Below, one piece after another: positions 2,816 through 58,303 of a stretch of DNA of 64,000 nt (within the stretch, counting starts at the first letter, position 1; each line of letters begins with the position of its first letter). The DNA lies in assembly GCA_021824175.1 (NCBI GenBank), contig JAKALP010000030.1:1-64000 (forward strand). The letters run 5' to 3'. Under the pieces are notes generated by a model. It ran no database searches. It saw nothing but the letters and a program-made list of their open reading frames with translations, and was not told the origin of the DNA. The position numbers were made by a program, and so were the translations under genes. This DNA is from Deltaproteobacteria bacterium (GTDB lineage Bacteria; Desulfobacterota; Desulfobacteria; Desulfobacterales; Desulfosarcinaceae).

Positions 2816-5458
2816 CAGCTTTTGGATCAACCCTTCCAAATCCTTATCCTCGAAGCAAAAGTGCATGCGCAAATAACGCTGCCGCAAGCGAACGACCTCT
2901 TCGCGAACGGTTTTATTCTTCAGGATCACATCGGCCATGAGCTGGGCCACGGTTTGAAACTCTTCTGGCCGCAGGCCGAAGCGGGTCATCTCGGCCGTGC
3001 CCAGGCGCAAGGCCCCGGAGGCGGTAAAGCCCTCTTCTTCAGGGGTTGCCTGGTAGTTGCAGATGATGTGGTTGGCTTCCAGGCGCCGGGCGATGTCAGG
3101 GCCCTGGGCATAGCCGACTTTAACTATTACCTGGTGGGTTTCGGTGAAATCCATGGCTGGATCGCCAGCCACGTCGAGGCCGCACTGCTTCAGGGCCTTG
3201 GCAAAGGCTTTGGCATTGGTCAGGACCTGGCGCTGGTATGGGGCTCTGAAGGCATTCATCTCCATGGCGGCCACCAGCAGGCCCAACAGAGTGCCCAGGT
3301 GATGATTGCTCACGGCGCCGGGAAAGGCGCGGCGTTCGATGGCTTCCCACAAGGAGGCTTGCTGGGGCTCGGCGGGTTCTAAGTTGGCGGCCACCACGCC
3401 GCGCTGGGGGCCGAAGAAAGTTTTGTGGGTCGAGCCGGTGACCAGATCAGCCCCTTCCTTGAACGGTTCCTGAAAAAAGGGGCCGCACAACCCCAGCACG
3501 TGCGCCATGTCGTACATGAGCACGGTCTGCACGCCGATATCATCGATGATGGCGCGCAGTGCGGCCACCGGCTCTTTATGCAGGGTCATGCTCTTGCCCA
3601 GGATGATCAGCTCCGGCCGGAAGCGGTCGATTAGCTCCCGGCAGGCCTCAATATCTATGGCATAGGGATTGTGCCCCAGGGCCGGAAAATTGATCACGGC
3701 CGGTCTTTCCATGACCGGGTCGCGGCTCACGTAGTCGCGCAGGGCGCCCATGGGCTGGGCGCTCAGGTGGCCGCCCTTGATGATGTGGTGGTTCATCACC
3801 ATGCGCAGGCGGCGCTGTTCGCTCTTGCGGTCGGTGCGGTTGTAGTGATCCACCAGGGCGCTGAAGACCACCATGTTGGCCATCTGACCCGAGATGGGGC
3901 GGGTTTCTACTTGGCGGCATCCCAGGTAGAGGCACAGTTGCTCGGCCAGGGCCGCTTCCACCGCGGCGATGAACTCCGTGCCCTGGTAGTAGAAGATTTC
4001 GGCATCGGCCAAAGCCTTGACCCTTTTGTGTTCGGCGTAACGGCCGGACGGGTCGGTGATGGAGAGCAGGCGAACCAGGGCCGAAGGGGTTTGCTCTGAA
4101 GGAATGAGGTTGATGCACTGCTGCTGGCGCCATTGGTGATTATCCAGGGCTTTTTGAACCCACTGACGCGCCTGGGCCACGGCCGCCGGCGCCGCCGCGG
4201 GGGGCGCGGCCAGACTCTCCTGGAAGTTTTTCCAGGTGTAGGCCCGGGCATGGGGTGGGGCCTCGCTGCGAAGCAAATAGGGCATCACGCCGGCTTGCAG
4301 CCGTTTGCCGCGTACGTCGATGACAATGGTGTCGCCTTCCTGGATGCTGCTGTCCAGCAGGGCCAGGGCTATGGCGCGGCGGTTGGAAGTTTCGGTCAGG
4401 CGGGAAGAGAGTCCCTCGCCCTCAATGGCCCAATAGGGCACCATGGTGCCGCTGGTGATCCAGCCCGCCGGCTCATCGTCTTTGAAGACCTGGGCACCGG
4501 CCCGGGCGATGCCTTTATCAAGCATTTCCACCGGCCGGACCAGGCGCGGCAAATCTTCCCAGCGATCAAAGCGGTCGTCCATGAATCCCTTCCAGGCCAG
4601 AAACTGTCGCTGCAGCGGAGTCTTGCCGATGAAATCACCTTTGAGGGGCGAGAAGCTCACGGCAAAGCGGGCCAGGCCAATGGCAAAGACCGGGATGGGT
4701 TGCCCCTGGGGATCGTTGCCCAGTTCATGGCCGTACAAGGGCAGGCCGGCTTCCAGGCGCAGGGTGTCGCGGGCACCCAAGCCGATGGGTTTGGCGCCCA
4801 AATCCAGCAGCCGGTCCCAGACGGCGCCGGCGCGCTCGGCCGGCAGAAACAGCTCGAAGCATAAGGGTTCGCCGGTGTAGCCGGTGCGGGCCAGCCAGAT
4901 CTCGGCCGAAAGGCAGGTCGCCACGCTCAGGGCATTGCGCGCGGGCTCGGGAAGTTGGCCGCGGTCCAGGCATTTTAGAAGTATTTCTTTGGACTGCGGT
5001 CCTTGCAGGCTGAGCATGGCTATATCCATGGTGCGGTCCGTTAGGGTCAGGGAAGGAAAATGAGTTATTTCGGTTTGGAGATGGCGCCAGTCCTTTTCTC
5101 GGTTGGCGGCATTGACCACCAAAAGATAGCGATCGTCATGGAAGCGGTAGAGATAAGCATCATCGATGGCCCCGCCATCGGCGTCGGGGATCAGGGTGTA
5201 TTGACTCTGGCCCTTCTCCAGGGCTGCGGCGTTGTTGCTGAGCACGCGCTGCAGGAAAGGCAGGGCTTCCCGGCCCTGGAGGATGAACCGGCCCATGTGG
5301 GAGACATCGAAGAGCCCGGCCCCGCGGCGGGTATCCAAATGCTCCTGAAGTATTCCGGAAGGATACTGTACCGGCATCTCCCAGCCACCAAAGGGCACCA
5401 TCTGGGCGCCCAGCTTGAGGTGGCCGTCATAGAGGGGGGTGCGAAGCAATGATTCCAT
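2804..5458 (-). CDS. Fusion of GcvT-like aminomethyltransferase and serine hydroxymethyltransferase-like enzyme
   Basis: An 884-residue protein with two folate enzymes in one chain. Residues 1-400 are GcvT-like (glycine cleavage T protein): VPFGGWEMPVQYP, LFDVSHMGR, and GGAIDDAYLYR with the folate-site Asp. A Pro/Ala-rich linker follows at about 400-430. Residues 430-884 are SHMT-like and PLP-dependent: YDMAHVLGL (D650, H653) and GSTHKT with the Schiff-base lysine K679. The substrate loop reads INLIPSEQTPS instead of the usual IELIASEN, so this is a divergent SHMT. The T protein releases methylene-THF from the glycine-derived aminomethyl group and SHMT uses methylene-THF with glycine to form serine, so channelling is plausible. 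GGAGACCTCC precedes the ATG. No gcvH or gcvP is adjacent. Confidence 0.88.
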   Translation of the reverse strand: MESLLRTPLYDGHLKLGAQMVPFGGWEMPVQYPSGILQEHLDTRRGAGLFDVSHMGRFILQGREALPFLQRVLSNNAAALEKGQSQYTLIPDADGGAIDDAYLYRFHDDRYLLVVNAANREKDWRHLQTEITHFPSLTLTDRTMDIAMLSLQGPQSKEILLKCLDRGQLPEPARNALSVATCLSAEIWLARTGYTGEPLCFELFLPAERAGAVWDRLLDLGAKPIGLGARDTLRLEAGLPLYGHELGNDPQGQPIPVFAIGLARFAVSFSPLKGDFIGKTPLQRQFLAWKGFMDDRFDRWEDLPRLVRPVEMLDKGIARAGAQVFKDDEPAGWITSGTMVPYWAIEGEGLSSRLTETSNRRAIALALLDSSIQEGDTIVIDVRGKRLQAGVMPYLLRSEAPPHARAYTWKNFQESLAAPPAAAPAAVAQARQWVQKALDNHQWRQQQCINLIPSEQTPSALVRLLSITDPSGRYAEHKRVKALADAEIFYYQGTEFIAAVEAALAEQLCLYLGCRQVETRPISGQMANMVVFSALVDHYNRTDRKSEQRRLRMVMNHHIIKGGHLSAQPMGALRDYVSRDPVMERPAVINFPALGHNPYAIDIEACRELIDRFRPELIILGKSMTLHKEPVAALRAIIDDIGVQTVLMYDMAHVLGLCGPFFQEPFKEGADLVTGSTHKTFFGPQRGVVAANLEPAEPQQASLWEAIERRAFPGAVSNHHLGTLLGLLVAAMEMNAFRAPYQRQVLTNAKAFAKALKQCGLDVAGDPAMDFTETHQVIVKVGYAQGPDIARRLEANHIICNYQATPEEEGFTASGALRLGTAEMTRFGLRPEEFQTVAQLMADVILKNKTVREEVVRLRQRYLRMHFCFEDKDLEGLIQKLSEF

Positions 5459-5502: not shown

Positions 5503-5643
5503 AATAAGTTTTAAGTGTAAAGTATAAAGTTTAAAGTTGAGGCATTCTGTCTGATTGGATTTTTAACTGCCAAGATCGACCATAGTCATTTTTGATATCA
5601 ATGGGAGAATTCCTTAACTTAAAACTTTGAACTTAAAACTTTA
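5503..5643. repeat. AT-rich inverted repeat of AAGTTTTAAGT-like words
   Basis: The left arm (5503-5538) is made of TAAGTTTTAAG/TAAAGTTTAAAG words and the right arm (5612-5643) of their complements (AACTTAAAACTTTGAAC). The spacer is about 70 bp. It lies between the GcvT-SHMT start and the 3' end of the next minus-strand gene. It is one of several low-complexity palindromes at gene boundaries in this window. Confidence 0.65.
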
Positions 5644-5653
5644 ATCTATTTTA

Positions 5654-5965
5654 TTATCCCATCCCTTCAATCGGAAAGAGTTTATCAAAAAGCTCGGCAT
5701 CTTCCACCAGATCAATGCCCGCGCCGGTCAATTCAACATAACAGGAAGCAAAGGGCGGGCAGTTGCTGTCGTGGGAGAGTTCTACCCAGCCCTTTTTCTC
5801 CAGGTAGATGATGTTCCAGTTCAGCTCCGGCGGCTCTGCGCCGCAGATTTCCGCCAGTTGTCGCAGCTCCACCGGCGCCAGCGGCACCTCCTTGAATTGG
5901 GCGTAGAGCTCGCTCAGGATGGCGCGGCGCAGTTTTTTAGCGGATGGTTGTTCTTTGTCTTTCAT
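5654..5965 (-). CDS. Small winged-helix-like protein
   Basis: A 103-residue soluble protein of unknown function. The pattern LAEICGAEPPELNWNIIYLEKKGWVELSHD resembles the recognition helix and wing of small winged-helix proteins: two helices, then a hydrophobic YLEKKGWVEL turn and a charged strand. The basic N-terminus (KDKEQPSAKKLRR) would suit nucleic-acid contact. There is no catalytic motif and no partner gene is obvious. It may regulate the neighbouring GcvT-SHMT gene, which lies downstream on the same strand, but that is a guess. Confidence 0.6.
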   Translation of the reverse strand: MKDKEQPSAKKLRRAILSELYAQFKEVPLAPVELRQLAEICGAEPPELNWNIIYLEKKGWVELSHDSNCPPFASCYVELTGAGIDLVEDAELFDKLFPIEGMG

Positions 5966-5971
5966 CTTTTT

Positions 5972-6232
5972 TCGTTGATACGTTGATTGGTCTATTCGTT
6001 GATTGGTTGATGCGTTGATTGGATTGGGCCAACCAGAACCGCTGGAGCAAGATGAACTACTTCAGGTATCGAGGTGGCCTTCCATCATGCCCGCGCAGGC
6101 GGGCATCCAGCCTGATGGCACCCTAAGAACCTGGATTCCCGCCTTCGCGGGAATGACGTGCCGTGAAACGAAAAACCCCCGACCCGTCAATTATTTCACT
6201 CCTTCACAAATATGATCAATCAATCAACGACA
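5972..6232. repeat. GTTGATTG-type simple palindrome flanking a REP pair
   Basis: Tandem words CGTTGATTGG/TTGATGCG at 5972-6024 are answered by the complementary ATCAATCAATCAACGA at 6214-6232. The space between the arms contains a REP-like pair (6087-6158). The same word family recurs at 27122-27216, 34397-34483 and as a half-copy near 43641-43662. Confidence 0.65.
6087..6158. repeat. REP/BIME-like pair of GC-rich hairpins
   Basis: Hairpin one is TGCCCGC-GCAG-GCGGGCA at 6088-6105 and hairpin two is ATTCCCGC-CTTC-GCGGGAAT at 6134-6153. They are in inverted orientation, with CATCCAG and CTGGAT between them. This type (GCGGGAAT...ATTCCCGC with CTGGAT) is a widespread dispersed intergenic repeat in proteobacteria. 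No REP-associated transposase is in the window. Confidence 0.75.
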
Positions 6233-13328: not shown

Positions 13329-13721
13329 GGGAAGCTCCTTTCGGCGTTAATGGGTAAGTGCCTAATAACAAAGAAAATAAATAAATTCCCATTGTGTGAT
13401 GGCTTAATATACAGAAAATAAAAGAGCCATGTCTATGAGCCCTGGGGTTCATTTTTGCTGGGGTGGGTCGGGAGTTTGGGGGATTATCCCGGCTGGGGTG
13501 TCGATAGGAGGCCCATGGGTGAGGCCCAATTGGGCGATGCTAACGATTTGCCAATTAGTATTCTGCACGTACGCGTACTCGTACGCGTACTCGTACTCGA
13601 AAGAATAAACATCGGAAGAAGATGGAAGTCATTCGGCAAGATTTCAAGCTCTGTAAGCCTCTTGAGCCTTTTCCTCAAATGGTTTGCGGTTTGCGGCGGT
13701 TTTTCGCGCTATCTGCTGCTC
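13329..13721. other. Gap with a half-copy of the GTACGC/GTACTC repeat
   Basis: About 390 bp without a gene. At 13568-13600 there are five to six tandem hexamers of the GTACGC/GTACTC type, ending in TCGA. This is one arm only; no complementary arm follows, unlike the three hairpin copies at 33390, 40914 and 42240. Confidence 0.7.
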
Positions 13722-17087: not shown

Positions 17088-17382
17088 CGGCTACCTCGTT
17101 GGCTCGACCATCAGCGATTAAATCGGTTTCAACGATACTTTCAATTCCCTGCTCTCAGTCTCGGACATAGTCAATATTAGGAATGCGACTATCGTTCAAG
17201 CAGGCGGTATGCTTAATGTTTATTGGCTTATATACACAGGAAAGGGGGTTAATGAAAGTGCTTTCAAGCCATCTCATCAATCCAGAATGGGGGCTGCGGG
17301 TTGATCTTGGTCTGGGGCCGCGGGGCGCCTTGCGAACAAAACCCTGTGTTCGTCGGGCAACGACACGGCTGGTCTTCGGGGC
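17088..17382. other. Gap between potassium and cyclase genes
   Basis: About 295 bp between the 3' end of the potassium regulator (minus) and the start of the cyclase (minus), so it holds the cyclase promoter. An AAGCCATCTCA word at 17268-17278 matches the outer end of the palindromic element described at 58123-58303, without a visible partner arm. No gene found. Confidence 0.5.
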
Positions 17383-21047: not shown

Positions 21048-21194
21048 AGAAGCGGTTTCAAAACCTCCCCTCGAGCTCAAATCCTTTGTTGTGCCGAAAG
21101 GTTCAATCCTCAAAATACTCCATGTATTCCTGCGGTTGAACCTTTCGGCCCGTCGCGGCCTTGAGCCCGATTGAAGGTTTTGAAACCATTTCTA
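21048..21194. repeat. Large palindromic element, copy A (core on minus strand)
   Basis: Arms 21048-21065 (TAGAAGCGGTTTCAAAACC) and 21176-21194 pair almost perfectly; inner arms around GCCGAAAGGTTCAA (21092-21105) and TTGAACCTTTCGGC pair too. The centre, read on the minus strand, is CCGCAGGAATAC, four bases, AGTATTTTGAGGATT. The right arm includes the stop codon of the FAD oxidoreductase gene. See copies B (40113), C (52742) and D (58123). Confidence 0.8.
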
Positions 21195-27121: not shown

Positions 27122-27216
27122 TGGTTTATTGGTGGATAGGTTGAGTCGTTTACTTCAGGGATCGAGGGGTAGCGCTCCTACCAATCAACCAATCAACAAA
27201 TAAACGAATCAACCCA
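27122..27216. repeat. GTTGATTG-type palindrome
   Basis: The left arm (27122-27152, TGGTTTATTGGTGGATAGG...) is complementary to the right arm (27182-27216, CAATCAACCAATCAACAAAT...) with mismatches. It lies between two minus-strand genes. Same word family as 5972-6232 and 34397-34483. Confidence 0.7.
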
Positions 27217-30920: not shown

Positions 30921-30974
30921 ACGTCATCTCAAATAAGATTTCTGGCTCGAAATTCTTCTTTTGGGATGGTTCGT
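30921..30974. repeat. Degenerate palindrome with CATCTCAAA end
   Basis: GAACGTCATCTCAAATAAGATTT pairs loosely with AAATTCTTCTTTTGGGATGGTTC. It resembles the outer arms of the large palindromes at 58123 and 48390 but has no central core. It sits between convergent genes, so it may act as a bidirectional terminator. Confidence 0.5.
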
Positions 30975-33355: not shown

Positions 33356-33506
33356 GTGTGAGTCGCGACTGTTGCATCGCACCGGTATTCGTACTCGTAC
33401 TCGTACGCGTACTCGAAAAACTTTTAAAATCATTCGAGTACGAGTACGCGTACGAGTACGAGTACGATTTTGGAAAACACCGGTGTGCAACACTCTTAAC
33501 TCACAC
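33356..33506. repeat. GTACGC/GTACTC hexamer hairpin, copy 1
   Basis: The left arm 33390-33416 and right arm 33434-33467 are built of GTACTC/GTACGC hexamers and are exact complements. The loop is AAAAACTTTTAAAATCATT. Outer arms extend the hairpin: GTTGCATCGCACCGG (33371-33385) with CCGGTGTGCAAC (33480-33491), and GTGTGAG (33356) with CTCACAC (33500). It lies in a 420-bp gap between divergent genes and upstream of the chaperone cluster. No gene in the gap. Confidence 0.85.
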
Positions 33507-34499: not shown

Positions 34500-36314
34500 A
34501 TGAGTTCACCCCCATACATCATCGGCATCGATCTCGGCACCACCAACAGTGTCGTGGCCTATGTGGCGGCCGACACGCCGCGCGTGGAAGAGGCCCAAAT
34601 TCAGCTTTTTGAAATTCCCCAACTGGTGGACGCTGGCGTGGTGGCGGCGCGCCCCATCCTGCCTTCCTTTGTGCTGATGCCGCCCGAGCCGGGTACCCCG
34701 TCGGAAGATATGGCGTTGCCCTGGGACCCCGCGCCACCCTACGCCGTGGGTGAATATGCCCAGCGCCGGGGCCAGGAAGTGCCGCGGCGAGTGATTGCTT
34801 CATCCAAATCGTGGTTGTGCAACACCTTGGTGGACCGCAAGGCGCGCATTCTGCCCTGGGAGAGTGCGTCACCGGGCCAAGGGCAAACCGGCGTCAAACT
34901 CTCTCCGGTGGAGGCTTCGGCCGCTATTTTGAGGCACATCCGCCAGGCCTGGAATCATGTCATGGCCCGCGCCGATGCGGGCGTGGACGAACGTCTGGCC
35001 ATGGAGAATCAACGCATCTATCTCACCGTGCCGGCCTCATTTGACCCCGTGGCGCGCGAATTGACCGTGGCCGCGGCCCAGATGGCCGGTCTGCCCCAGG
35101 TGACCCTGCTGGAAGAGCCCCAGGCCGCTTTTTATGCCTGGCTTGCCCGGCAGGCCGAGCACTGGCGCCAGGCCGTGTCGCCGGGGGATCTGATTCTGGT
35201 GTGCGATGTGGGCGGCGGCACCACTGATTTCAGTCTGATCAAAGTCGGTGAAGACCAGGGAAATCTGGCTCTGGAGCGCATTGCCGTGGGCAATCATCTG
35301 CTGGTGGGCGGCAACAACATGGACCTGACCCTGGCGTATGCCCTGGCCCAGCAATTGGCCCAGGCCGGCACCAAGCTGGATGCCTGGCAGATGAACAGCC
35401 TGTGGCATGCCTGCCGCGGTGCCAAGGAAAAGATCCTTAACGACCCGGACTGCAAGGGCGTCCCGGTGGCCGTGTTGGGCCGCGGCAGTCGGCTGATTGG
35501 CGGCACCATCTCCACCGAATTGACGCGCGCCGCCGTGGAACGGGTGCTCAACGAAGGCTTCTGGCCGAGTTGTGAGCGCGATGAGCTTCCCAAGACCTCC
35601 CGGCGCAGCGGCATTCAGGAGTTTGGTCTGGCCTTTGAGGCTGAACCGGCCATTACCCGCCACCTGGCCGCTTTTTTGAACCGCAGCGGTCAAGGCGGGG
35701 CAGCCGTCATGCCCACGGCCGTGCTGTTCAACGGCGGGGTAATGAAATCGGCGCTCTTCCGGGAGCAGGTGTTGTCGATTCTGAATCGGTGGTCATCTGA
35801 AACCCCGGTTCGGGAAATTCAAGGTGCTGATTATGATCTGGCCGTGGCCCGCGGCGCGGCCTGCTTCGGCCTGGCCTGCCAGGGCAAAGGGGTGCGCATT
35901 CGCAGCGGTCTGGGCCGATCGTATTACATCGGCATCGCGGCCGCCATGCCGGCCGTGCCGGGCATGCCGGCCCCCACCAAGGCGCTGTGCGTGGCGGCCT
36001 TTGGCATGGAAGAGGGCAGTACGGCCGCCATTGCCGACCGGGAGTTCGTGCTGCTGGTGGGCCAGCCGGTGATCTTTGATTTTCTGGGGTCCACCACGCG
36101 CCAGGAAGATGCGGTGGGCCTTGTGGTTGAAGATTGGGAGGGCCAGATCCAGCCCATCACCACCCTGGAGACAGTACTGGAAGGCCAGGCCGGCCAGACC
36201 ATTCCCGTCACCCTGGAGCTGAAGGTCACCGAAGTGGGCACCCTGGAAGTATGGTGCGTGGCCAAGGAAGACCAGCGCCGCTGGAAACTGGAGTGGAATG
36301 TGCGGGAGCAGTAA
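34500..36314 (+). CDS. Hsp70-family chaperone-like protein, short form
   Basis: A 604-residue actin-fold ATPase. Phosphate-1 motif IDLGTTNSVVAY at 10-21, phosphate-2 motif LVCDVGGGTTDFSLI, and the adenosine region VLFNGGVMKS. An insert in the ATPase domain (residues 60-130) and a short C-terminal part of about 100 residues without the usual DnaK lid set it apart from DnaK. No dnaJ or grpE is adjacent. It likely acts with the longer Hsp70 encoded 2.7 kb downstream and with DUF2760. Client unknown. Confidence 0.88.
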   Translation: MSSPPYIIGIDLGTTNSVVAYVAADTPRVEEAQIQLFEIPQLVDAGVVAARPILPSFVLMPPEPGTPSEDMALPWDPAPPYAVGEYAQRRGQEVPRRVIASSKSWLCNTLVDRKARILPWESASPGQGQTGVKLSPVEASAAILRHIRQAWNHVMARADAGVDERLAMENQRIYLTVPASFDPVARELTVAAAQMAGLPQVTLLEEPQAAFYAWLARQAEHWRQAVSPGDLILVCDVGGGTTDFSLIKVGEDQGNLALERIAVGNHLLVGGNNMDLTLAYALAQQLAQAGTKLDAWQMNSLWHACRGAKEKILNDPDCKGVPVAVLGRGSRLIGGTISTELTRAAVERVLNEGFWPSCERDELPKTSRRSGIQEFGLAFEAEPAITRHLAAFLNRSGQGGAAVMPTAVLFNGGVMKSALFREQVLSILNRWSSETPVREIQGADYDLAVARGAACFGLACQGKGVRIRSGLGRSYYIGIAAAMPAVPGMPAPTKALCVAAFGMEEGSTAAIADREFVLLVGQPVIFDFLGSTTRQEDAVGLVVEDWEGQIQPITTLETVLEGQAGQTIPVTLELKVTEVGTLEVWCVAKEDQRRWKLEWNVREQ

Positions 36315-37235: not shown

Positions 37236-40091
37236 ATGCATATTGCCATGAAAGACCCGAAGAATTCTACCACAACGGAACCCTCCGCCGACCTTGGCGG
37301 TCGGCGCTTCATTATCGGCATTGACCTGGGCACCACCAATTCGGCCGTGGCCTACGTGGATCTGGCCGCACCCGCCCAGTCCCAGAATATCCAGCTCTTT
37401 GAAGTGCCCCAATTGACCGCCGCCGGCGTGTTCCAGCGCTTGCCGGTGCTGCCGTCTTTTCTCTACATCCCCGGCGAATTCGATATTGACCTGGCCGCCA
37501 CGCGCCATCCCTGGGCCAAACCCGAAGATGCCTTCGTGGGCTCCTGGGCCCGGGACCAGGGCGCCCAAGTACCGGGCCGGCTGGTATCGTCGGCCAAAAG
37601 CTGGCTGTGCCACTCCAAGGTGGATCGCCAGGCCCGCATTCTGCCGTGGGGCGCGCCCGAAGAAGTCTACAAACTCTCCCCGGTCCAGGCCAGCGCCGCA
37701 TACCTGGAGCATATCCGCAAAGCCTGGAATCACAGCCGCGGCGATGAAGAAGAACTCTTTCTCGAAAATCAGAGCGTGGTGCTCACCGTGCCGGCCTCCT
37801 TTGATGAAGTGGCCCGGGAACTGACGCTGGCCGCGGCCAGGTTGGCCGGTTACCGCCATGTGACCCTGCTGGAAGAACCCCTGGCCGCTTTTTACAGCTG
37901 GCTGGCCCGCCACGAACGCCAGTGGGATGCCTATGTGCAGCCGGGCCAGTTGATTTTAATCTGCGATGTGGGCGGCGGCACCACCGACTTTACTCTGGTG
38001 ACCCTCACGGCCGTGGCGGGCGGCAGCCCGCGTTTCGACCGTATCGCTGTCGGGGATCATCTGCTGCTGGGCGGCGACAACATGGATCTGGCGCTGGCCC
38101 GGCTGGTGGAAACCCAATGGCGCGGCCAGCAGCGCTCGGGGTTGGACACCAATCGCTGGAAGGCCTTGAGCCACCAGTGCCGTCAAGCCAAAGAGCGAGT
38201 GCTTTCGGGCCAGACGGATACGCAGCGCGTGACCCTCATGGGCGCGGGCAGCCGCCTGATCGCCGGCACCCTGAGCGCGGATCTCAACCGCACGATTATC
38301 GAGCAGACCATTCTGGAAGGATTTTTTCCATTGATTGATGCGGACCGGCAAGCGCCGGCGGCCCAGCGCCCGGCCATCGCCGAATTCGGGCTGCCCTATG
38401 AGTCGGAACCGGCCGTCACCCGCCATCTGATGCGCTTTCTGGAGCGCCACCGCCAGGATGTGACCGAGATCATCGGCCAGCCGGACCCCATGCCCGATCT
38501 GGTGCTGTTTAACGGCGGCGCCCTCAAGCCCGAGAGCCTGCAGCAGCGCATCATCGACGCGGTCTGCCGCTGGTTCAAAACCGCGTCCCCGCGGCGTCCC
38601 GGCAAGCTGGAAAACCCACACCACGATCTGGCCGTGGCCCTGGGCGCGGCCTATTACGGGCTGGTCAAAACCGGCCAAGGGGTGCGGGTGGGCAGCGGCA
38701 GCCCGCGCAGCTACTATCTGGGCGTGGCGGCTGGAACGGCCGAACCTGCGAATCTGCCCCAGGCCATCTGCCTGGTGGAGCGCGGCCTGGATGAGGGCAG
38801 CGCCATCCAGCCTGGAGAACAACGGTTTGAAGTCCTGGCCAATCAACCCGTGCGTTTCGAGCTTTTCAGTTCCAGTTTCCGCAGCCGGGACCGCATGGGG
38901 CAACTGGTGACCATCGATGATTCCTTCATCCCGTTGCCGCCGCTGCAAACCGTGATCCAGTACGGTAAGAAAGGAAGTAAAACCAGTCTGCCGGTGCGCA
39001 TCGAAGCCGAGTATACGGAATTGGGCACACTGTCGCTCTGGTGCCGCTCCCTGGTCAGCGACCATCGCTGGCAGCTGCAATTCCAGTTGCGCGACAGCGG
39101 AACGGCCGCGGCCGTGCGCGAAGAGATTGTGCTGGAAGACCGGGTGGTGGAGGCGGCCCGCCAGGCCCTGTTGGCCGCCTTTGGCAGTAAAGATCAAAAC
39201 CAGTTGAACGCGGTGGTGAAGAATATCAGTGCGGCCGTGGATCTGCCCCGCGAGCAATGGCCCCTGCGCCTGCTGCGCAACCTGGGCGATCTGCTGCTGG
39301 CCAATACCGACTTTCGGTCCCAGAGTGCGGCCCATGAGGCGCGCTGGATGAACCTCACCGGCTTTTGCCTGCGCCCAGGCTTTGGCGATGCCCTGGACGC
39401 CGAGCGCGTCAAACAAGTGTGGAAGCTGCAAAACCAAGGGGCGGTGCACGCCAATCAACCCCAGGTTCAGATCGAGTGGTGGATCATGTGGCGGCGATTG
39501 GCCGGCGGCCTCACGCCGGGGCAGCAGCGCCAGCTCAGTCAGGAGTGGAGCCGCTTGCTGCAGCCCAAGAAAGGCAAGGCCATCCGGCTGCCCCAGCAGC
39601 ATCAATTGGAGTTGTGGATGGCGGTGGCCAATCTGGAGCGGCTCTATGTCAAAGATAAAATCCAATGGGGCCGTCTGCTGCTGTCCCAGCTCAATCCGAA
39701 TCAGGCCAAGCATCAACTGCTGTGGTCCCTGGCGCGCATCGGGGCCCGTGAATTGCTTTATGGCTCCAATGACCGGGTGGTTGCGCCCCAAGAGGTCGTG
39801 CGCTGGATCGAAGAACTGCTCAAGGGCAAATGGCCCCAACCCAAAATGGCGGCCGCAGCCCTGGCCCAGCTTGCCCGCAAAACCGGCGACCGCACGCGGG
39901 ATGTGGAGGCCGGCGTGCGAAGCCGTATCCTCGAATGGATGGCGCCTTTGGATGGCGTTGGCGATCTACGCCGTTATCTTGAAGAAGTAGTCCCTATTGC
40001 CCAGCGGGAAGAACAAGATCTTTTTGGTGAATCACTGCCGGTGGGGCTTGTTTTGCACGGGCAGGCGGCCGAGGATGAGAAGGATTCATAG
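37236..40091 (+). CDS. Hsp70-family protein with long C-terminal extension (DUF3731-like)
   Basis: A 951-residue protein. Residues about 25-400 are an Hsp70 ATPase domain (FIIGIDLGTTNSAVAYVDL; LILICDVGGGTTDFTLV; LVLFNGGALKPE). Beyond about 600 it carries a helical extension of about 340 residues with repeated W and L patterns (WIMWRRLAGGLTPGQQRQLSQEW) that resembles DUF3731. It is a paralogue of the 604-residue Hsp70 upstream; their ATPase domains share the insert with SSAKSWLC/SSKSWLCN. Two in-frame ATGs lie at 37236 and 37248, and the ribosome binding site is weak. Last gene of the cluster. Confidence 0.87.
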   Translation: MHIAMKDPKNSTTTEPSADLGGRRFIIGIDLGTTNSAVAYVDLAAPAQSQNIQLFEVPQLTAAGVFQRLPVLPSFLYIPGEFDIDLAATRHPWAKPEDAFVGSWARDQGAQVPGRLVSSAKSWLCHSKVDRQARILPWGAPEEVYKLSPVQASAAYLEHIRKAWNHSRGDEEELFLENQSVVLTVPASFDEVARELTLAAARLAGYRHVTLLEEPLAAFYSWLARHERQWDAYVQPGQLILICDVGGGTTDFTLVTLTAVAGGSPRFDRIAVGDHLLLGGDNMDLALARLVETQWRGQQRSGLDTNRWKALSHQCRQAKERVLSGQTDTQRVTLMGAGSRLIAGTLSADLNRTIIEQTILEGFFPLIDADRQAPAAQRPAIAEFGLPYESEPAVTRHLMRFLERHRQDVTEIIGQPDPMPDLVLFNGGALKPESLQQRIIDAVCRWFKTASPRRPGKLENPHHDLAVALGAAYYGLVKTGQGVRVGSGSPRSYYLGVAAGTAEPANLPQAICLVERGLDEGSAIQPGEQRFEVLANQPVRFELFSSSFRSRDRMGQLVTIDDSFIPLPPLQTVIQYGKKGSKTSLPVRIEAEYTELGTLSLWCRSLVSDHRWQLQFQLRDSGTAAAVREEIVLEDRVVEAARQALLAAFGSKDQNQLNAVVKNISAAVDLPREQWPLRLLRNLGDLLLANTDFRSQSAAHEARWMNLTGFCLRPGFGDALDAERVKQVWKLQNQGAVHANQPQVQIEWWIMWRRLAGGLTPGQQRQLSQEWSRLLQPKKGKAIRLPQQHQLELWMAVANLERLYVKDKIQWGRLLLSQLNPNQAKHQLLWSLARIGARELLYGSNDRVVAPQEVVRWIEELLKGKWPQPKMAAAALAQLARKTGDRTRDVEAGVRSRILEWMAPLDGVGDLRRYLEEVVPIAQREEQDLFGESLPVGLVLHGQAAEDEKDS

Positions 40092-40112: not shown

Positions 40113-40261
40113 TATAGTGCTTGAACGAAAACCCCATATTTTTCCAAGTTCAAGGCGGAGGCAAAATTTTAACCGCAGGAATACACGTAGTATTTCGAGG
40201 ATTAAAATTTTGCCCCAACGCAGAAATTGGGAAAATAGGGGATTTTCGTTCAAGCACTATA
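40113..40261. repeat. Large palindromic element, copy B
   Basis: Outer arms of about 35 bp (40114-40148 with 40227-40261; TATAGTGCTTGAACGAAAA) pair with four mismatches. Inner arms GGCAAAATTTTAA and TTAAAATTTTGCC flank the core CCGCAGGAATAC, CACGT, AGTATTTCGAGGATT (40173-40203). A trace of the usual outer end AAGCCATCTCAAAA is at 40093, just after the Hsp70 stop. It lies between convergent genes. Confidence 0.85.
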
Positions 40262-40675: not shown

Positions 40676-41150
40676 TTTTTGATCCTTTACTGCGGATGAA
40701 TCATCGAATTTCCTTCGTGGTCGCTCAATGCAACCATTCTCATCATGGACTGCCGCCTGGAGCAAGGCAACTTTGTGGCTCAGATGTCGTCAAAGGTTTG
40801 GCAGGAAGAGGAAGTATATTGCTTGTACCACTGCAACCCGGTTGAATCAAGCCGGGCCATTGGCTGGGTGTGAGTCATAACGGTTCCATGAAGTATGAGG
40901 TCTCCCCCATATCGTACACGTACTCGTACGCGTACTCGTACTCGAATGATTAAAAAAGTTTTTCGAGTACGCGTACGAGTACGAGTTCGACCTGCGTGAA
41001 AGCCACATCATGTCCACTCCGGACGCTCCTATTGAAGTTCTCTCTATCGATACCTCCCGAACATAGAGATTAACACTTTTACTTTGGTTATATAGCCATC
41101 TATAGAGCACTCTTGGCGAGTTCCATTAATAATCATTAAAGGTAGTTGCA
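40676..41150. other. Divergent gap with the GTACGC hairpin, copy 2
   Basis: About 475 bp between the hemerythrin and DoxX/MauE-like genes. The hairpin at 40914-40991 fills its centre. A 70-codon frame at 40745-40957 reads through the repeat (YTYSYAYSYS) and is not considered a gene. Confidence 0.55.
40914..40991. repeat. GTACGC/GTACTC hexamer hairpin, copy 2
   Basis: The left arm 40914-40946 (GTACAC, GTACTC, GTACGC, GTACTC, GTACTC) pairs with the right arm 40965-40991. The loop on the complementary strand reads AAAAACTTTTTTAATCATT, the same as copy 1 with two changes. The element is therefore inverted relative to copy 1. Confidence 0.85.
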
Positions 41151-42239: not shown

Positions 42240-42331
42240 ATCGTATTCGTACCCGGCGCAGCGGTATTTGTACTCTAATGAATTTACCAAATCATTTCGA
42301 GTACGAGTACGCGTACGAGTACGAGTACGAT
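42240..42331. repeat. GTACGC/GTACTC hexamer hairpin, copy 3 (left arm decayed)
   Basis: The right arm 42298-42331 (GTACGAGTACGCGTACGAGT...) is intact. The left arm 42241-42275 keeps only GTATTCGTAC, GTATTTGTACTC. The loop AATGAATTTACCAAATCATT keeps the AATCATT of copies 1 and 2. It lies between the rhodanese and selD genes. Confidence 0.8.
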
Positions 42332-42411
42332 TCGCTTTTTAGGTCATGACAAATGCGACCCAATCATGACCTCCTTGTAAAAAGATAGCGGAATGTTTAA
42401 GGTAGCCAGCC

Positions 42412-45311: not shown

Positions 45312-45334
45312 ATACTTTTTTGAAATGGCTTGTA
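45312..45334. repeat. Single outer arm of the large palindrome family
   Basis: ACTTTTTTGAAATGGCTTGTA resembles the right outer arm of the element at 58123-58303 (TTTTTTGAGATGGCTTG). No left arm or core is nearby. It lies immediately upstream of the WYL regulator's ribosome binding site. Confidence 0.55.
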
Positions 45335-48389: not shown

Positions 48390-48444
48390 CAAGCCATCTC
48401 AAAAAAGCCTTTTGGCCCAAAATTCTTTTTTTGAGAGGGCTTGT
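48390..48444. repeat. Short palindrome with the CAAGCCATCTCAAAA end
   Basis: CAAGCCATCTCAAAAAAG (48390-48407) pairs with CTTTTTTTGAGAGGGCTTG (48425-48443), with a loop of about 17 bases. It has the outer arms of copy D without the central core. It lies between divergent genes, about 100 bp upstream of the aminotransferase gene. Confidence 0.75.
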
Positions 48445-52741: not shown

Positions 52742-52889
52742 TGTACAAGATATTTCAAAATAAAGATTTTTGGGTAAAATCGAGGCGCCGGCAAATTTTA
52801 AACCGGAGACATACTAAAGTATTTCGAGGATTTAAAATTTGTCTTCAACAAAGAGTTTGGGCCAAAAGATTATTTTGAGATAGCTTGTA
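52742..52889. repeat. Large palindromic element, copy C
   Basis: Outer arms ACAAGATATTTCAAAATAA (52745-52763) and its partner TTATTTTGAGATAGCTTGT (52870-52888). Inner arms CAAATTTTA and AAAATTTG flank the core CCGGAGACATAC, TAA, AGTATTTCGAGGATT (52803-52833). It differs from copies A, B and D at one core base (CCGG versus CCGC). Confidence 0.85.
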
Positions 52890-54855: not shown

Positions 54856-55740
54856 ATGAAAATTCTCATGCTGGTCAATCCGCGCGCGGGGCGTAAAAAA
54901 GGTGAGCGGGTGGCCCAAAAGGCCCGCGCGGCATTTCAAAGCCAGGGTGTGGAAATGGTCTGCTGCTGTTCCGAGCAGGCCGGACAGCTTTCCGAGTTGG
55001 CCGAGCGGGAAGTCAATGGGGATTGGGACGGCATCGTGGCCCTGGGGGGCGACGGCACCTTGTTCGAAGTGATCAACGGCATGATGCGCGGCAACCCTGA
55101 GCTGCCCATCCCTTTGGGGGTTCTGCCCGTGGGATCGGGCAACTCCTTCAGCCGCGATCTGGATATCAAAAGCCATGATCATGCCATTGCCAAAATCATC
55201 GCCGGCCACACCCGTGGCGTGGATCTGGGCCGATGCACCTGCGACCATTCCGCTTTCCATTTCATCAATATTCTTGGATTCGGCTTTGTCTCCGATGTGG
55301 CCTTGATTGCCTCAGCCCATAAGCGCTGGGGGGATTTGAGCTATCTGATTGGGGTGTTTCAGATGGTCCGACGGCTTCAATCCTACCCCTTGGAAGTGGA
55401 GATTGACGGGCGCCAGTTTCAACGGGACAATGTGTTTGTCGAGATTTGCAATTCTACCAAGACCGGCGGCACCATGCACATGGCACCCCAGGCCAGGATC
55501 GACGACGGCTTGCTCGACGTGGTGTTGCTCAACCGCATTACGCGCTTGCGGGTGATTACTTCGCTGCCCAAATTGTACAAGGGGACCCACCTGCAACTGC
55601 CCGAGGTCGAAACCTTCACCGGCCGCCGGATGAGCTTCCGACCGGCGCGCTCCAAGGTGCTGACCCCGGACGGTGAAATCCTGGGCCGCACGCCCATTCA
55701 GGTGTCGGTGCTGCCGGGCAAGCTGCGGATTTTTGGGTAG
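54856..55740 (+). CDS. Diacylglycerol/lipid kinase-like protein (DagK/YegS family)
   Basis: A 294-residue cytoplasmic kinase of the NAD-kinase/DAGK superfamily. Motifs: MLVNPRAGRKKG, ALGGDGTLFEVINGMM (GGDGT), LPVGSGNSFSRDL, and a C-terminal beta domain. It phosphorylates diacylglycerol, sphingoid bases or other lipids; the substrate is not fixed by motif. ATG 54856 is preferred over a TTG nine bases earlier. It is divergent from the FHA-transglycosylase gene, with 173 bp between them. Confidence 0.85.
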   Translation: MKILMLVNPRAGRKKGERVAQKARAAFQSQGVEMVCCCSEQAGQLSELAEREVNGDWDGIVALGGDGTLFEVINGMMRGNPELPIPLGVLPVGSGNSFSRDLDIKSHDHAIAKIIAGHTRGVDLGRCTCDHSAFHFINILGFGFVSDVALIASAHKRWGDLSYLIGVFQMVRRLQSYPLEVEIDGRQFQRDNVFVEICNSTKTGGTMHMAPQARIDDGLLDVVLLNRITRLRVITSLPKLYKGTHLQLPEVETFTGRRMSFRPARSKVLTPDGEILGRTPIQVSVLPGKLRIFG

Positions 55741-55761
55741 GGGGTTTGGCGAGGGTGGAGC

Positions 55762-56006
55762 GAGGGACAAAGGGACTTAGGGGCTAAGGGACTGAGGGAA
55801 AAGGCACAGAGGGAAAAGGCACAGAGGGGCAGAGGCACTGAGGCACAAAGGAAGGCATAAAGGGACTGAGGGACAAAGGGACTGAGAGAAAAGCAAAAGG
55901 GGCTGAAGTGCAAAGGGGCAGAGGCACAGAGGTGCAAAGAAAGAATATTCGCCTCTGTGCCTCTGCCCCTTTGTGCCTTAGAACCTTTGTGCCTTTGCAC
56001 CTCAAA
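55762..56006. repeat. Dense low-complexity palindrome (AGGGACTGAGGG/GGCACAGAG words)
   Basis: Tandem words AGGGACTGAGGGACAAAG and AAGGCACAGAGG fill 55762-55940, answered by complementary CTCTGTGCCTCTGCCCC, TTTGTGCCTT and TTTGCACCTC from 55951 to 56003. The turn lies at about AATATTC (55943). It lies between convergent genes. Confidence 0.8.
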
Positions 56007-58122: not shown

Positions 58123-58303
58123 TGCAAGCCATCTCAAAAAAAGGATTTTGGTTCAAAATCTCCCGCTAAAAATCATCGGGATAAAGCTTTGGAGGCAAAT
58201 TTTAAACCGCAGACATACTAAAGTATTTCGAGGATTTAAAATTTGCCTCCAATCCCGCCTCAGTTCGGCGGGAGGCCAAAAGACTTTTTTGAGATGGCTT
58301 GCA
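58123..58303. repeat. Large palindromic element, copy D
   Basis: Outer arms TGCAAGCCATCTCAAAAAAA (58123-58142) and TTTTTTGAGATGGCTTGCA (58285-58303). Middle and inner arms GGAGGCAAATTTTAAA and TTTAAAATTTGCCTCC flank the core CCGCAGACATAC, TAA, AGTATTTCGAGGATT (58207-58237). The best-preserved copy: it has both the conserved outer end and the core. Confidence 0.9.

Follow-up and report, generated by a model that had tools for sequence, protein, structure and literature searches.

Genomic hairpins that look like mobile elements with borrowed insertion-sequence ends are probably preserved for their fold

Dozens of hairpins dispersed through a desulfobacterial genome resemble, as far as their sequences tell, mobile elements with ends borrowed from known insertion sequences (ISs). 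What evolution preserves in them is probably the fold itself, the core of which is shared with bacteria of another phylum. The family is real, widespread and structured, and it is a MITE by kind, unusual among MITEs because its conserved part is the fold. We consider it reasonably probable that these elements are a superfamily of MITEs mobilised by ISs, and that the unit they inherit is a single folded strand (of RNA or of single-stranded DNA, ssDNA), probably bound by protein.

Four hairpins of the window belong to a dispersed family

In the 64,000-nucleotide stretch of DNA analysed here (the window), the four full copies described by an earlier sequence-only reading were all found, a few bases from where it had placed them, and each is a long hairpin (Table 1). 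The core search pattern, RMATACN{3,5}GTATTTYGAGGA, had 57 matches in the 6,074,036 bases (6.07 Mb) of the genome and none in a reversed-read control; the core is therefore not confined to the four window loci. Compensation between the arms, also claimed earlier, held in a covariation test on 96 copies, in which 25 of 35 pairs covary. The description as a MITE with a common core and compensating arms, present in many genomic copies, was thus right, and neither of the outcomes that it had named as contrary to it, a lack of further copies or arms without compensation, is what we found. As an interpretation it was supported in part, since it lacked the lineages of ends and duplications, the strand-specific structure and the relatives in Clostridia.

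Several details needed amendment. In the 52746 copy, the centre has CCGGAG where CCGCAG had been given. The outer end said to be kept by two copies is intact at both ends of the 58125 copy (AAGCCATCTCAAAA), but the 52746 copy has AAGATATTTCAAAA and AAGCTATCTCAAAA in its place. Among the coreless or half sites proposed, 48390-48443 and, in degenerate form, 30921-30974 were confirmed and 45312-45334 proved to be a single end, but 17268-17278 is a weak 11-bp match.

Table 1. Hairpin elements and element parts in the window.
Feature	Position	Strand	Details
Type B element (feature under study)	58125..58301	+	177 nt; ends CAAGCCATCTCAAAA..TTTTGAGATGGCTTG; flanks TG, CA; 58.0 bits for the centre
Core ACATACTAAAGTATTTCGAGGA of the 58125 copy	58213..58234	+	core pattern match
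Nested hairpin TCCCGCTAAAAATCATCGGGA, left arm of the 58125 copy	58161..58181		
Nested hairpin TCCCGCCTCAGTTCGGCGGGA, right arm of the 58125 copy	58253..58273		
Type B element	52746..52887	+	142 nt; TA on both sides; 95 bits
Type A element	40117..40257	+	141 nt; ends GTGCTTGAACGAAAA; TATA on both sides; 127 bits
Single type B end GAAGCCATCTCAAAA	40091..40105	+	adjoins the type A element; lies where ORF 37236-40091 ends
Type E element	21049..21192	- (core strand)	144 nt; + strand ends GAAGCGGTTTCAAAA / TTTTGAAACCATTTC; TA on both sides; 103.7 bits
Coreless 54-bp hairpin with type B ends	48390..48443		
Degenerate coreless 54-bp hairpin with type B-like ends	30921..30974		
Single type B end (half copy)	45312..45334	-	

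Between their end patterns, uninterrupted elements measure 138-145 nt, mostly 140-142 nt; they have terminal inverted repeats and no transposase gene. An end type was assigned on both sides in 118 of 164 copies, leaving 46 unassigned. Setting the limits of elements by free extension of the pairing was dropped in favour of end patterns, as it ran into random flanks in most copies.

Extra small hairpins lie in the arms of the 58125 copy and of L002, L006, L009-L011, L023, L024, L032, L042 and L046. Most are TCCCGC..GCGGGA-like, with CGACACA..TGTGTCG in L009 and L011, as if a second palindrome family targeted the elements. Coreless elements of 36-54 bp with type B or D ends were also seen, at 48390-48443 in the window and at G065:C11:229-264, G065:C73:1054-1089 and G080:C28:11223-11259; with little beyond their two ends, these would be either deletion products of the hairpins or minimal mobile units.

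The interior is conserved as a fold on one strand

The alignment used for structural analysis holds 96 copies drawn from 125 usable ones, with nested, odd and near-duplicate copies left out; a first, strict copy filter (39 kept) was replaced by this wider one. From the outside in, the functional strand of an element consists of a terminal inverted repeat of ~15 bp, a stem that varies, the outer of two internal loops, 20-22 nt of further stem, the core loop and a tip formed by a capped ATAC-N3-5-GTAT; the core GAGG is followed by an unpaired A. The commonest form of the outer loop is C-AA-G opposite C-GCM-G and that of the core loop C-GCA-G opposite C-GA-G; in these forms both loops are one motif, three bases opposite two, facing opposite ways. 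Across the 96 copies, the 5' strand of the core loop is CGCAG in 45, CGGAG in 22 and CACAG in 20, while the outer loop has CAAG (68 copies) or CGCG (16) on its 5' strand and CGCAG (30), CGCCG (24) or CAAAG (22) on its 3' strand. This variation counts against our best reading, in that the two loops resemble each other without being identical. Reading them as k-turns was rejected because of a misfit in register.

The distance between the loops is about two helical turns or one: among 136 distinct copies it is 20-24 nt in 111, 10-12 nt in 23 and 13-14 nt in 2. All 96 desulfobacterial copies have 20-22 nt; the 40 distinct Clostridia copies have 21-24 nt (15 copies), 10-12 nt (23) or 13-14 nt (2). 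Such spacing suggests that one protein or dimer may contact the two loops from the same side of the helix.

Selection on the interior is structural and strand-specific. In the 96-copy alignment 95.0% of cells pair, and for 25 of the 35 pairs at least one copy has both bases changed; such two-sided changes occupy 484 cells, compared with 138 on average after shuffling and 54-169 when the partners are slid. Mismatches in the stem are G-U in 329 cells and A-C in 31, and when the three pairs in which G-U is the modal state are set aside the counts are 155 and 31 (21 of the 32 remaining pairs lean to G-U, one leans to A-C and the rest tie), whereas the terminal 15-bp repeats have 54 G-U and 37 A-C (p=0.09); none of these pairing and mismatch counts takes account of relatedness between copies. 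Double-stranded DNA or copy correction would be symmetric and the interior is not, so we read the interior as one folded strand and the ends as double-stranded DNA.

Ends and target duplications differ between lineages

Type D ends (GAGACCTTTG[AC]AAAA) are accompanied by a 5-bp target duplication (31 copies; 88% identity versus 32% in shuffles), type A ends (GTGCNTGANCGAAAA) by a 6-bp duplication, often TANNTA (38 copies; 67% versus 54%), and type F ends (GAGCCAGTTTC-like) by a 4-bp duplication (9 copies; 78% versus 35%). Target-site duplication, one mark of a MITE, is therefore seen above shuffle level for types D, A and F. Types B and C gave no signal in the same shuffle test, and type E, with three copies only, lay outside it; B/E ends (GAAGCCATCTCAAAA and variants) are mostly flanked by TA dinucleotides.

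A second mark, an autonomous partner with matching ends, was found for B/E only (L206, L207, L216-L218 and L224). These partners are IS5-type ISs of ~0.84-0.95 kb with B/E-like ends; they lie in G028 (L206, L207), the congener G002 (L218, L224), G030 (L216) and G031 (L217). PF13340 occurs in L206 and L207, the latter also containing PF01609, and L216-L218 and L224 were found via PF13340. TA flanks L206, L207, L217 and L218; L216 lies between two AA dinucleotides, and L224 has a degenerate left end. These two-ORF ISs of relatives (PF13340, or DUF4096, with PF01609 in L207) thus share B/E-like ends with the elements and, in the four cases named, TA flanks, but differ from them in possessing transposase ORFs, and neither L206 nor L207 has a core.

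The sequence-only reading had noted no clearly matching transposase in the window. PF13340, the only family searched in this respect, is indeed absent from the window's whole genome, but ISs with matching ends exist in relatives, the congener included, and PF13340 is present in 7 of the 31 genomes searched. The window's genome has one PF01609 match, at a locus with other inverted repeats. No complete IS was found for types A, C, D or F or for the Clostridia or Saprospiraceae ends, no transposase-sized element was seen for any end type at the loci examined, and none was present at type D ends in eight genomes among the matches listed. One form of the type D end, GAGACCTTTGCAAAA, equals the end of ISNme1 (IS5 family) as printed in the available text of PMC4596501; descent from the IS5 family is thus indicated for B/E by ISs in genomes and for D by the printed ISNme1 end alone.

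In a tree of 94 interiors, in which columns are few and 59 of the 91 inner branches open, end type changes 6 times against a minimum of 4 and an average of 51 in shuffles. End types therefore track interior lineages, and changes of end or partner appear to be rare, a point that weighs against the reading we favour.

The family extends to relatives and beyond the order

A covariance model, R1, was built from the 96 aligned copies. It matched 59 of 79 genomes including the window's own, that is, 58 of 78 relatives, and across 10 congeners the number of matches ranged from 1 to at least 45 per genome. In a GTDB contig collection the core pattern occurred in at least 114 stretches, mostly from MAGs titled Desulfobacterales, Desulfobacteraceae or Deltaproteobacteria; its relatives and the contig titles point to Desulfobacterales as the order of the window's genome. 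A plasmid search with one window copy and one Clostridia copy returned no match. Rfam 15 gave no match above the gathering threshold in the window or in 15 Clostridia and Saprospiraceae loci; matches below threshold, in 5 loci, were mostly to microRNA precursors. Our literature search, outside which subscription papers fell, found no description of this core or hairpin family.

R1 was also run over the whole of twenty genomes from other groups in which the core pattern occurs, and it matched 35 sites in G083 (a Clostridia MAG from goat rectum), 26 in G087 (a Clostridia MAG) and 4 in G090 (a Saprospiraceae MAG). The remaining 17 of these 20 pattern-bearing genomes had no R1 match, so the core pattern alone is no proof of membership. 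The 40 distinct copies from G083 and G087 have CAAGG in 35 cases, ACGNNG in 36 and TCGAG or TTGAG in 31, all parts outside the search pattern, with changes on both sides in 28 of 35 pairs, and Clostridia mismatches number 82 G-U against 19 A-C; since R1 chose these copies and alignment to R1 places their loops, this support is partly circular. The end in G087 is GTAAAC[AG]CTGA; six of eight loci tried fit it, all 170 nt long, and the 4-bp duplication is identical in four of the six. In G090 the four copies are flanked by TA sites, measure 161 nt and differ in their tip. A viral scan gave 103 stretches, of which 80 were made into loci, and R1 matched 2 of the 80 (L419:2112-2229 and L429:10826-10943; 45.4 bits each); both have GGGCTTG..CAAGCCC ends adjoining TA, so phages may carry the family.

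Some Clostridia copies lie close together. At L368 (G083:C82), positions 2014-2419 hold four Clostridia cores in tandem, ~108 bp apart, and other paired copies occur in contigs C5, C17, C68 and C85 of G083. At L061, also in a Clostridia genome, copies lie at 3576-3858 and 5627-5909 within 283-nt stretches that are 88% identical, beside similar ORFs of 533 and 535 aa; these were duplicated along with a gene, not by transposition.

A model for the inherited fold and its alternatives

In the reading we favour, IS transposases would move the elements in trans through the ~15-bp terminal inverted repeats, duplicating the target, and what the family would inherit is the interior, in which one particular strand folds into a hairpin whose two like loops face opposite ways about one or two turns apart. 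The strand would be active in single-stranded form, either as transcribed RNA or as ssDNA at the replication fork or in transposition. A predicted dimeric or two-site protein would bind both loops on one helix face, and such binding could help the element to persist and spread whichever transposase serves it. This would explain how the fold outlives changes of end type and why it is shared between phyla. The acting strand may well be an RNA transcript, to which we give slightly less than an even chance, and ssDNA is a possible candidate; RNA is slightly preferred because of the preference for G-U.

MITE interiors are usually regarded as passive. In this family it is the interior that is conserved; its fold is strand-specific and appears to obey a phase rule, and ends and duplications vary by lineage. 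It is a tentative extension of the model, and one that we hold with some doubt, that the family is a cross-phylum selfish hairpin, in which an inherited strand-specific fold with phased like loops and a predicted dimeric protein has outlived its transposase partners, the ends serving as adaptors and the fold as the replicator. The family thereby offers a system in which to ask if, across phyla, the selfish unit of a transposable element can be a fold that codes for nothing.

Orientation relative to replication bears on a somewhat unlikely alternative, that the folded strand works as ssDNA during replication or transposition, or that only one of the replication strands tolerates it. Replication arms were set from GC skew in 20 sampled 20-kb stretches per genome in six genomes. 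Orientation tracks the arms in G029 (G-rich arc 5+/24-, C-rich arc 41+/17-; p=2.8e-6) and G028 (3+/26- and 24+/18-; p=5.8e-5), while long ORFs do not match the arcs in either (p=0.20 in G029, p=0.50 in G028), and the functional strand is the more stable as ssDNA in 92 of 95 uninterrupted elements. Four of the six genomes (G028, G029, G022 and G023) belong to one genus, and some copies may have come to both G028 and G029 from a common ancestor; the biases in these two are therefore not fully independent. There was no clear bias in the other four genomes, two of them of the same genus (G022, 11/13 and 20/10, p=0.17; G023, G079 and G077, p=0.73, 0.62 and 1). Rotation tests for G028, G022 and G077 gave 0.045, 0.096 and 0.016, the copies listed for orientation being 71 of 87, 54 of 61 and 24 of 41 in these genomes. 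In some insertion sequences the transposase contacts the replication machinery, and contact of this kind would yield an equal bias with no function of the hairpin.

We think it unlikely that the elements are host-selected structured RNAs (regulators, mRNA stabilisers or processing sites) in 3' or 5' UTRs that happen to be mobile. The strand-specific fold with its G-U preference would suit such a role, 112 of 124 copies lie outside called ORFs, and bcr1-3 of Bacillus cereus, themselves MITE-like, are often in UTRs or operon gaps according to the accessible text of PMC3446304. By greedy ORF calling, however, 38 of the 124 copies are codirectional with genes and 29 antisense, with no clear link to the direction of transcription; 30 are convergent, 12 divergent, 12 inside ORFs and 3 at edges. 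The varying match counts among congeners are a mobile-DNA pattern. Nor was the transcription-terminating role in convergent gaps, raised by the sequence-only reading, borne out: the stretches of the four window copies, scanned for a stem followed by a T-run, had no terminator-like site, which sets aside the intrinsic terminator class.

Less likely still are ordinary MITEs with a functionless interior, in which quasipalindrome correction (template switching at inverted repeats) keeps the arms paired and recent spread keeps the core. The MITE kind itself is supported by the duplications and by the ISs with matching ends, arm correction predicts pairing with variable sequence, and the near balance of G-U and A-C in the terminal repeats fits a strand-neutral process. 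Correction would, however, erase internal loops and bulges and would not favour G-U in the interior, and like loops recur in Clostridia, mostly at one- or two-turn spacing.

It is very improbable that the elements are repetitive extragenic palindromes mobilised by Y1 (RAYT-type) transposases, for although the genome has 7 Y1_Tnp matches and some arms hold REP-like small hairpins, the class consists of 20-40 bp palindromes beside a Y1 gene and these elements are ~140 nt long with target duplications and DDE insertion-sequence ends, the surroundings of the 7 Y1 genes showing no core and just scattered two-mismatch end matches. An integron attC site comprises integrase-bound boxes and recombination in cassettes; the target duplications argue against this reading.

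Comparison with described repeats

The nearest described kind are bcr1-type repeats, compared here by description. Like our elements, bcr1 of the B. cereus group (one of the group A repeats bcr1-bcr3) is dispersed and MITE-like, and the accessible portions of the sources give it a predicted conserved structure and an average of 39 copies per strain (PMC3446304, PMC6542083, PMC2267715). Those of PMC6542083 describe it from the B. cereus group only and tie it to TTTAT motifs. Unlike bcr1, the elements studied here have several end types and duplication lengths and occur in several bacterial groups; they fall outside the bcr1 class, because the A, D and F duplications vary in sequence and length and the hosts are Desulfobacterales-type MAGs, Clostridia and Saprospiraceae.

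Among IS5-family MITEs, BrickBuilt of Porphyromonas gingivalis and ATR of Neisseria meningitidis are likewise non-autonomous, and the BrickBuilt ends (GAGACCTTTGCA), like those of ISNme1, resemble type D, in the available text of PMC4596501. As described there, BrickBuilt has a minisatellite and irregular duplications, whereas type D has a regular 5-bp duplication, and that description includes no conserved folded core for BrickBuilt or ATR, which our elements possess. The MITEs of Thiomargarita nelsonii are large dispersed hairpins ending in TATAG direct repeats; one sits in a dsrA group I intron, and the accessible part of the source likens them to Correia elements (PMC4853749), a comparison that we make by description only.

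Other repeats in the window

Besides the hairpin family, the window contains a second dispersed family built of CGTAC/GTACTCG steps in direct and inverted orientation (13568-13621, 33384-33473, 40906-40990 and 42294-42335), with 85-nt arms at 33389 and 40906 that are 93% complementary. A degenerate AAAGGCACAGAGGGA-like tandem repeat at 55754-55988, with an inverted copy at 55952-55988, overlaps ORF 55698-56000. The adjoining ORFs 34500-36314 and 37236-40091 share repeats reading CDVGGGTTDF, which we take to be an Hsp70-like motif. Finally, a GTTGATTGGT-type repeat forms an inverted pair at 5982-6011 and 27184-27213 that is 90% complementary.
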